From Halorussus salilacus (GTDB lineage: Archaea; Halobacteriota; Halobacteria; Halobacteriales; Haladaptataceae): a stretch of DNA of 64,000 bases. The DNA lies in assembly GCF_024138125.1 (NCBI RefSeq), contig NZ_CP099993.1, forward strand, positions 248,001-312,000, written 5' to 3'. Below are positions 13,406 through 60,896 of this stretch, one piece after another. Both the position numbers and the translations under genes were made by a program. Positions within the stretch are counted from its first letter, which is position 1. The number at the start of each line of letters is the position of its first letter. The notes below the pieces were generated by a model. It searched no databases, was not told the origin of the DNA, and worked only from the letters and a program-made list of their open reading frames with translations.

Positions 13406-13500
13406 TCGAATCGTCTGGTCCAAATGTTGCGAAGCGAGCGCCGACCAGATATCCCGCAGAGCAACCGCGAGCGTCCGGAGGCTTTCGAGGACTTCCCAGT
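13395..13500. repeat. Partial third copy of the structured GGCTTTC element
   Basis: The 3' half is clearly related to the full copies at 22.5 and 60.6 kb: AGATATCCCGC, then GCAACCGCGAGCG, then GGAGGCTTTCGAGGAC. The inner stem is kept (TCTGGTC near 13420 pairs with GACCAGA near 13445). The outer 5' arm is missing and replaced by the border of the long inverted-repeat element. Confidence 0.55.
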
Positions 13501-22388: not shown

Positions 22389-22771
22389 GGCCGGGGTTCG
22401 CAGCGCGGTGGCCGACCGGCCATTCGCCGCGAATCGCCCGGCGAATCATCCAGCGTGGAATCGCCCGGCGAATCATCCGCCACGGGCGGGACTGAAAGGG
22501 GCCGCCCGCTCGCGCACCGTTTAGTCGCCTGCGCGACCCCTATCTGGGCCGGGCGGTGCTGAGAGGCCCAGATATGTCGCGTCAGCGACCGCGAGCGGGC
22601 GGGGGCTTTCTGACGGTTCACGGTGCAGGTGACTCCGGTCCGTAGCGAGCGGGCGGGGGCTTTCGAGGCGTTCTTGGTTACGGCACCTACGTTTCGGACG
22701 ACGACCGAGAAATCACACGAACTCGTTCCTGGGCGGCCAAACTCTTTACCGCTCGACACGAAACCCCACAC
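22389..22771. other. Gene-free region holding a repeated structured element
   Basis: Begins with two direct copies of GAATCGCCCGGCGAATCATCC (about 22430-22478), then the structured element at 22484-22663. No ORF here looks real. Confidence 0.6.
22484..22663 (+). ncRNA. Candidate structured RNA element, copy A
   Basis: 5' arm: GAAAG (22494-22498), GGG, CCGCCCGCTCGC. 3' arm: GCGAGCGGGCGG, GGG, CTTTC (ending 22610). The arms pair on both sides of a symmetric GGG/GGG internal loop. Inside are two further stems, CGCGAC/GTCGCG and ATCTGGGCC/GGCCCAGAT. A second 3' arm with the same sequence (GCGAGCGGGCGGGGGCTTTC) follows at about 22644-22663 and could compete for the 5' arm. The copy at 60.6 kb has the same architecture with a compensatory change. 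No transcription evidence is available. Confidence 0.5.
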
Positions 22772-60516: not shown

Positions 60517-60896
60517 GCCGAATCCGATGCGCTCGGTGACGCTTTCCACGCGAATCGGCCGGTGACGGATTCCTCGGGGTGGGAATGAAAGGGGCCGCCC
60601 GGTCGCGTCCGAAGGACTTGGTCGTCTCCGCGGGCAACTATTTCCGCGCCGATGCAGTGCGTTGCGGTGAGGCGCGGAAATATCCCGCGGAGCGACCGCG
60701 ACCGGGCGGGGGCTTTCGAGGACGAAATCATGGCTCCTTCTGAGTAGTCGTATAGCGGGCGGGGGCTTTCTGGCCCTTCACGGCTCTGTTACCTGCAATT
60801 CGAGGACGATTATCTGAAATTCCAAGCGAACCACCCACTCCACCGACCGACGAGCGAATCCCAACGTTCTCGTTCGCCCGCTCCCTCCACACTCCT
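60517..60896. other. Gene-free region holding the second full structured element
   Basis: Only the element at 60582-60775 is recognised here; the rest is promoter sequence for the methyltransferase gene. Confidence 0.6.
60582..60775 (+). ncRNA. Candidate structured RNA element, copy B
   Basis: 5' arm GAAAG, GGG, CCGCCCGGTCGCG (from 60586) pairs with 3' arm CGCGACCGGGCGG, GGG, CTTTC (ending 60717). The inner stems are CTCCGCGGG/CCCGCGGAG and ATTTCCGCGCC/GGCGCGGAAAT. Relative to copy A, one stem pair changed from C-G to G-C on both sides, a compensatory change. A second shorter 3' arm, AGCGGGCGGGGGCTTTC, follows near 60752-60769. The downstream strings (CGAGG and TGGCCCTTCACGG) occur in swapped order compared with copy A. 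Confidence 0.5.

Follow-up and report, generated by a model that had tools for sequence, protein, structure and literature searches.

A dispersed, covarying palindromic repeat with repeated 3' arms in Halorussus salilacus and other Halobacteria

The sole close precedent that was found in the literature for the repeat described here is the PATE and SMR elements of Haloquadratum. PATEs (palindrome-associated transposable elements) of Haloquadratum walsbyi are palindromic elements with no transposase gene that reach up to hundreds of copies, are heterogeneous in sequence and tied to IS605-type ends, and carry two near-terminal palindromes (PMC3119063). The SMR-A elements of Haloquadratum are about 110 bp long with prominent inverted repeats and are present in tens of copies that, within a type, generally exceed 95% identity; they are nested with other elements, and their mobilisation is enigmatic (PMC3119063). 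REP/REPIN sequences are 20–40 bp long, bear GTAG/CGTC tags and have a RAYT (Y1) partner (PMC3116915, PMC3733652).

The repeat under study lies in a stretch of 64,000 nucleotides from Halorussus salilacus (contig NZ_CP099993.1, positions 248,001 to 312,000; hereafter the window). It resembles the PATEs in being haloarchaeal, palindromic, heterogeneous and without a transposase gene, and in the longer distance of the palindrome from one end. Unlike them, it has a short resemblance to IS605 ends, consists of one long multi-stem hairpin and repeats its 3' arms at multiples of three. With SMR-A, compared by description, it shares size (a 117-nt hairpin), inverted terminal repeats, copy number, nesting and puzzling movement, whereas its hairpin heads covary and differ widely, the mean column identity of 37 heads being 75% rather than above 95%. 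Like REP/REPIN sequences it is a non-autonomous, dispersed extragenic palindrome, but the 117-nt multi-stem hairpin, the different ends and the lack of a consistent Y1 partner set it outside that group. Given the 75% mean column identity and a relation to IS605 ends that is suggestive in nature, the repeat is therefore filed as a non-autonomous palindromic mobile repeat outside the PATE and SMR-A groups, in the case of SMR-A by description.

Integron attC sites are single-strand hairpins whose extrahelical features are conserved while the terminal structure varies, and are accompanied by cassette genes and an integrase. By analogy, the repeat appears to share with them the single-strand hairpin, its conserved extrahelical features and the varying terminal structure, but seemingly has neither cassette genes nor an integrase associated with it. 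The family combines clear structural selection, probably at the DNA level, with the absence of an evident transposase.

The hairpin of copy A spans 22494–22610 and comprises a GAAAG/CTTTC stem, a GGG/GGG internal loop, a 13-bp stem and two inner stems (Table 1). Its arms, 22494–22514 and 22590–22610, are inverted repeats with 86% complementarity and pair around the symmetric GGG/GGG loop as the preliminary description had proposed, the loop being the sole departure from pairing; the two further inner stems that it had placed within the hairpin were likewise found. The second 3' arm that it had noted some 35 nt on is a 20-mer identical to the first (22645–22664 and 22591–22610, offset by 54 nt with 34 nt between). 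Of the extent that had been given, 22484–22663, the left end stands, but on the 3' side the tail reaches about 22698. The 3' arm has six matches in the window with at most three mismatches, against 0.08 expected by chance. Folding of copy A (185 nt) gave z = -2.5 on the + strand and -4.4 on the - strand. With the 5' arm forced onto the first versus the second 3' arm, the energies were -109.9 versus -108.3 kcal/mol for RNA and -55.8 versus -53.4 kcal/mol for DNA, and the two alternative pairings are thus predicted to be almost equal in energy.

Table 1. Positions of copy A, copy B and related features in the window
Feature	Position	Strand	Basis
Relic, 3' half of head (CCAGATATCCCGCAGAGCAACCGCGAGCGTCCGGAGGCTTTC)	13444..13486	+	arm matches in window
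Upstream 27-nt unit, two copies (GAATCGCCCGGCGAATCATCC...), accessory module upstream of many heads	22431..22478	+	sequence
Left end of element, GGGCGGGACT; family consensus GGGYGGGACT	22484..22493	+	abrupt start of conservation, -10 from GAAAG
5' arm: GAAAG (stem 1), GGG loop side (22499-22501), CCGCCCGCTCGCG (stem 2, 22502-22514)	22494..22514	+	sequence, covariation
Hairpin interior: 9-nt 5'-side bulge (22515-22523), stems 3 and 4, terminal loop	22515..22589	+	sequence, covariation
Stem 3, hairpin interior	22524-22537 with 22576-22589	+	covariation
CCC/T internal loop, hairpin interior	22538-22540 / 22575	+	sequence
Stem 4, hairpin interior	22541-22550 with 22565-22574	+	covariation
Terminal loop, hairpin interior	22551-22564	+	sequence
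First 3' arm: CGCGAGCGGGCGG (stem 2), GGG, CTTTC (stem 1)	22590..22610	+	sequence, covariation
First tail/spacer, 34 nt	22611..22644	+	unit and tail statistics
Second 3' arm, identical to 22591-22610, 54 nt downstream	22645..22664	+	sequence; arm-unit family
Last tail, about 34 nt; the family-wide period-3 pyrimidine rhythm stops here	22665..22698	+	family statistics; end approximate in copy A
Copy B: left end 60577-60586, head 60587-60717, damaged second 3' arm ending 60770	60577..60770	+	

A BLAST search with the 185-nt query found 70 places in the 3.6-Mb Halorussus genome, and a covariance model (R1) built from 37 heads returned about 70 heads; the two copies of the preliminary description, A and B, are both present and belong to this much larger set. 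There are 81 occurrences of ACTGAAAGGG in the genome and two of its reversed control; among those that lie outside canonical heads are minimal, truncated and nested forms in which the ends are unchanged. Conservation begins abruptly at -10 (GGGYGGGACT) in own, related and distant copies alike. Among 18 congeners the copy number by covariance model ranges from 0 (G008) and 1 (G013) up to at least 62 (G010 and G002, each). The search of haloarchaeal genomes that had been suggested as a check was run with the covariance model, and at E ≤1e-5 there was a match in 67 of 294 genomes of Halobacteria and 27 of 78 genera. This distribution is patchy and includes plasmid-borne copies in Halorussus, Haladaptatus and Haloarcula, and what began as one odd hairpin thereby becomes a large repeat family of haloarchaea, present in about one in four of the sampled genomes. 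No phage match was obtained for the repeat, nor any match in viral contigs for one exact pattern of it, and carriage by phages or viruses was rejected on these grounds.

The alignment of 37 heads has 97.8% of its helix cells paired, and 19 of the 40 pairs have changed on both sides. While the preliminary description had reckoned with alignments that might show no covariation beyond that of inverted DNA repeats, covariation proved very strong, with 0 of 500 shuffles comparable and no slid version near the observed value. The compensatory changes lie mostly in stems 3 and 4, and stem 1 also changes in step across families (GGAAG/CTTCC in L166, L173 and L067). Nearly all copies retain the GGG/GGG loop, the 5'-side bulge and the CCC/T asymmetry, and other haloarchaeal families, with a different stem 2, keep the unpaired features unchanged; in one copy (L189) the GGG loop is closed, leaving a perfect palindrome. 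Strong covariation together with fixed unpaired features demonstrates that the folded hairpin is selected. Over 99 anchored heads, 41 of about 3985 helix cells are non-Watson-Crick (17 G-T, 5 A-C and 19 others). So few wobble pairs favour a DNA fold, and selection probably acts on DNA rather than RNA. The ratio of G-T to A-C (17:5) gives a mild hint that the + strand folds as a single strand, and selection of a single + strand, which would be expected of RNA too, counts against a reading in DNA only.

Occupancy of sites is variable. Both genes flanking copy A were found at the locus in 16 of 17 congeners and the downstream gene alone in one, and none of the 17 loci carries a head. When the heads of the genome were compared with 57 heads of related species, using one genome per species, 10 pairs matched on both flanks, so that most head positions are unshared within this sample. 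Copy B is matched at the orthologous site by a head of H. halobius (L076). At shared sites (L030/L062/L088/L089 and copy B/L076) whole inner stems differ and are still self-complementary, a pattern more suggestive of modules exchanged among copies than of gradual point substitution. Across the congeners no exact empty site was seen and no target duplication was established; each relative is a separate species with different intergenic sequence, and for this reason no precise empty site can be defined. From the pattern of occupancy we infer that the repeat is mobilised. The orthologous copy A gaps of five relatives (L104, L105, L109, L113 and L114) contain other dispersed modules instead, namely GGTTGGGGAGG...GCGGTCGCGGTGC... 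and repeats of the GCTAGCTTC/GAAGCTAGC type.

The arrangement of one donor and two acceptors that was first noted holds for copy A, but across the family the number of acceptors is one to seven. Heads have 0–6 extra 3' arms; at least one is present in 53 of 159 heads, counting arms similar to the head's own arm, and about two thirds of heads have one 3' arm and no competing arm. Several haloarchaeal families share this plan of a single 5' arm followed by repeated 3' arms, the extra arms resemble the arm of the local head, and distant lineages with a different stem 2 repeat their own arm (L067, L184, L186 and L199). Multiples of three (48, 51, 54, 57, 60, 63, 66, 72 and 75) account for 56 of the 63 locus-distinct arm spacings; of the remaining seven (53, 55, 56, 58 and 71), four by inspection involve arms with small indels. 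Since spacings within the genome share ancestry, the nine different lengths are the fairer count, and the probability that all nine share a residue class is about (1/3)^8, with the seven off-multiple cases excluded. The longest clean array (L022/L041, G000:C1:1889829-1890280) has six identical 54-nt units following a damaged head, and this identity would imply recent expansion or homogenisation. Spacers are often repeated within arrays and are common to different loci, and the spacer of copy A has no second match in its own genome with at most three mismatches. A reading as a CRISPR array or guide was rejected because units are often identical and the copy A spacer matches nowhere else in the genome. 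The tandem units of 26–27 nt that precede heads have a short hairpin of their own (CACCGG...CCGGTG) and occur in runs of up to about seven; in contrast to the 3' units, they are not restricted to multiples of three, and before some heads their place is taken by another dispersed module.

We regard copy A, at a probability of roughly 0.68, as a non-autonomous palindromic mobile DNA repeat that is selected as a folded single DNA strand or cruciform, served by a trans-acting factor and extended in its arms by recombination. The element, about 160 bp without extra units, would consist of the left end, the long imperfect hairpin and the 34-nt tail. A mobilising factor acting in trans would recognise the fixed unpaired GGG/GGG loop, the 5'-side bulge, the CCC/T loop and TATC/GATA, leaving the paired sequence free to change. 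Copies would be gained and lost through insertion and deletion, and recombination would swap stems and loops between them. The extra 3' arms would arise by local duplication of a unit of tail plus 3' arm and would mostly stay complementary to the 5' arm, offering it as many as seven possible partners.

A switch, an attenuator and a mobile unit with a repeated end had all been envisaged at the outset, and the last is favoured here. A structured RNA, whether a small RNA or a leader attenuator or switch in which the 5' arm chooses among alternative 3' arms, would agree with the strong covariation, the conserved unpaired motifs, the preponderance of G-T over A-C, the near-equal energies of the two copy A pairings and the position of most heads upstream of a gene reading away. 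Against this, G-T makes up about 0.4% of helix cells, which is low for a selected RNA, and a TATA-like, promoter-like hexamer within 60 nt upstream was found for 0 of 68 heads; with 17 G-T in about 3985 cells and no such box, the data do not support an RNA gene or an attenuator. The repeat also has no constant gene partner, its copies number from 0 to at least 62 in close relatives, and the single 3' arm of about two thirds of heads leaves no competitor. An Rfam scan of the window gave no match at the gathering threshold, in agreement with the earlier statement that no named RNA family has these features. Because G-U pairs are very rare and both a promoter and an Rfam match are lacking, the mobile repeat is favoured over the RNA switch, which we consider unlikely. 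Replication template-switching alone, which would perfect the arms of a palindrome with no factor recognising the fold, is consistent with the almost perfect Watson-Crick pairing and with the GGG loop of L189, converted to a perfect match. Blind correction of palindromes should, however, erase loops, and the persistence of the GGG/GGG loop, 5' bulge and CCC/T asymmetry in nearly all copies, in other families too, makes this account very unlikely.

We also lean against, while holding it possible, the explanation that the repeat is a terminal-only IS605-type element (a PATE) that a Y1 transposase mobilises and whose palindrome has received SMR-A-like hairpins. This has a published parallel in Haloquadratum (PMC3119063), and as in PATEs the palindrome is far from one end and near the other; a genomic IS605-type end CTGAAGGGGTGGGCTTTC (reverse strand) is close to CTGAAAGGGG...GGGCTTTC, and head L128 has an IS605-type end just downstream. 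The left palindrome GAAAGCCCACCCCTTCAGGGGTGGG of an IS605-type tnpA-tnpB element (L165:1345-1845; G000:C1 ~1223549-1224049), read on the other strand, is similar to the minimal form of the repeat. The apparent resemblance is nevertheless short, the genome has two to three near-exact IS605-type palindromes, and IS605 ends near heads are rare, the heads standing among other palindromic modules. The Y1 (TnpA) transposase by which PATEs would be mobilised does not consistently accompany the repeat in the congeners: Y1 genes (PF01797) are present in 10 of 18, unrelated to copy number, and are missing in eight, including the copy-rich G010 and G002. A resident Y1 transposase was rejected as helper since its presence does not track copy number.

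An all-against-all comparison of head-flanking ORFs returned just orthologous loci and the repeats themselves and no recurrent gene family, and a recurrent neighbour gene was rejected as helper on this basis; neither the flanking ORFs nor the search for PF01797 in 18 congeners yielded a transposase or other gene that would serve as helper. By gene calls that are rough (acidic ORFs; in copy B the upstream gene was probably called wrongly), 36 of 50 heads are followed by a gene that points away from them, with 21 flanking pairs (+,+), 15 divergent, 8 (-,-) and 6 convergent, and orientation towards the downstream gene could reflect a regulatory role. On two plasmids, Haloarcula marismortui pNG500 (L118:4360-6117) and one of Haladaptatus salinisoli (L119:4747-11046), a divergent gene has a head just upstream of it, and the two genes encode related OB-fold/SOSS-B-type DNA-binding proteins (BLASTP 1e-15). 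In the Haladaptatus salinisoli plasmid the OB-fold gene is followed by genes for an Mre11-like exonuclease and a Rad50-like ATPase. Such neighbours may be there by chance, as plasmid context, or may include a functional partner.

Over the 34 nt that follow the last CTTTC, a pyrimidine is favoured at every third base, a rhythm that is flat from position 35 and absent upstream. In Halorussus and relatives the favoured phase has 72–75% pyrimidine versus 45–55% in the others, and in distant families 61% versus 51 and 40%; in each of three sets, 0 of 2000 permutations reached this. G+T is raised in the tail alone (0.50–0.53 versus 0.41–0.45). A protein-coding tandem repeat was rejected as the cause of the multiple-of-three spacing, since each reading frame is interrupted by stops in 15 or more of 67 units and similar tails differ to much the same extent in the three phases (81/81/70), with transitions favoured at the pyrimidine phase. 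Tail positions 1–16 have a weak consensus, and remote common ancestry may contribute to the rhythm there; further on no base dominates, yet the phase persists. As far as we know, a non-coding tail rhythm of this kind and the multiple-of-three arm spacing are new and undescribed.

A natural candidate for the cause would be a machine that reads nucleic acid in threes, and the specific question posed is which protein reads DNA in this way. RecA-family recombinases bind DNA in base triplets, and RadA is our suggestion for the tail, although a literature search on RecA/RadA triplet phasing found no directly applicable paper. In the fullest form of this suggestion, which we think improbable, RadA or another triplet-reading protein would assemble on the tail of a transposase-free repeat in register with the 3' arms, and its filaments would pair an arm with other copies, so that copies spread, stems are swapped and arrays grow. 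If recombination did move the element, this would constitute a transposase-free route for the spread of a repeat.

Other hairpin modules are inserted in heads L135, L143 and L149. A second hairpin module (CTCGTGAGCGAAGCGAACGAGGGCTC...GGTGG) is found at these three loci and at L134, L037, L127 and L036, where it lies within the tip or the 3' side of heads, or directly abuts the left end at GG|ACTGAAAG; judged from these junctions, its nesting apparently has precise ends.
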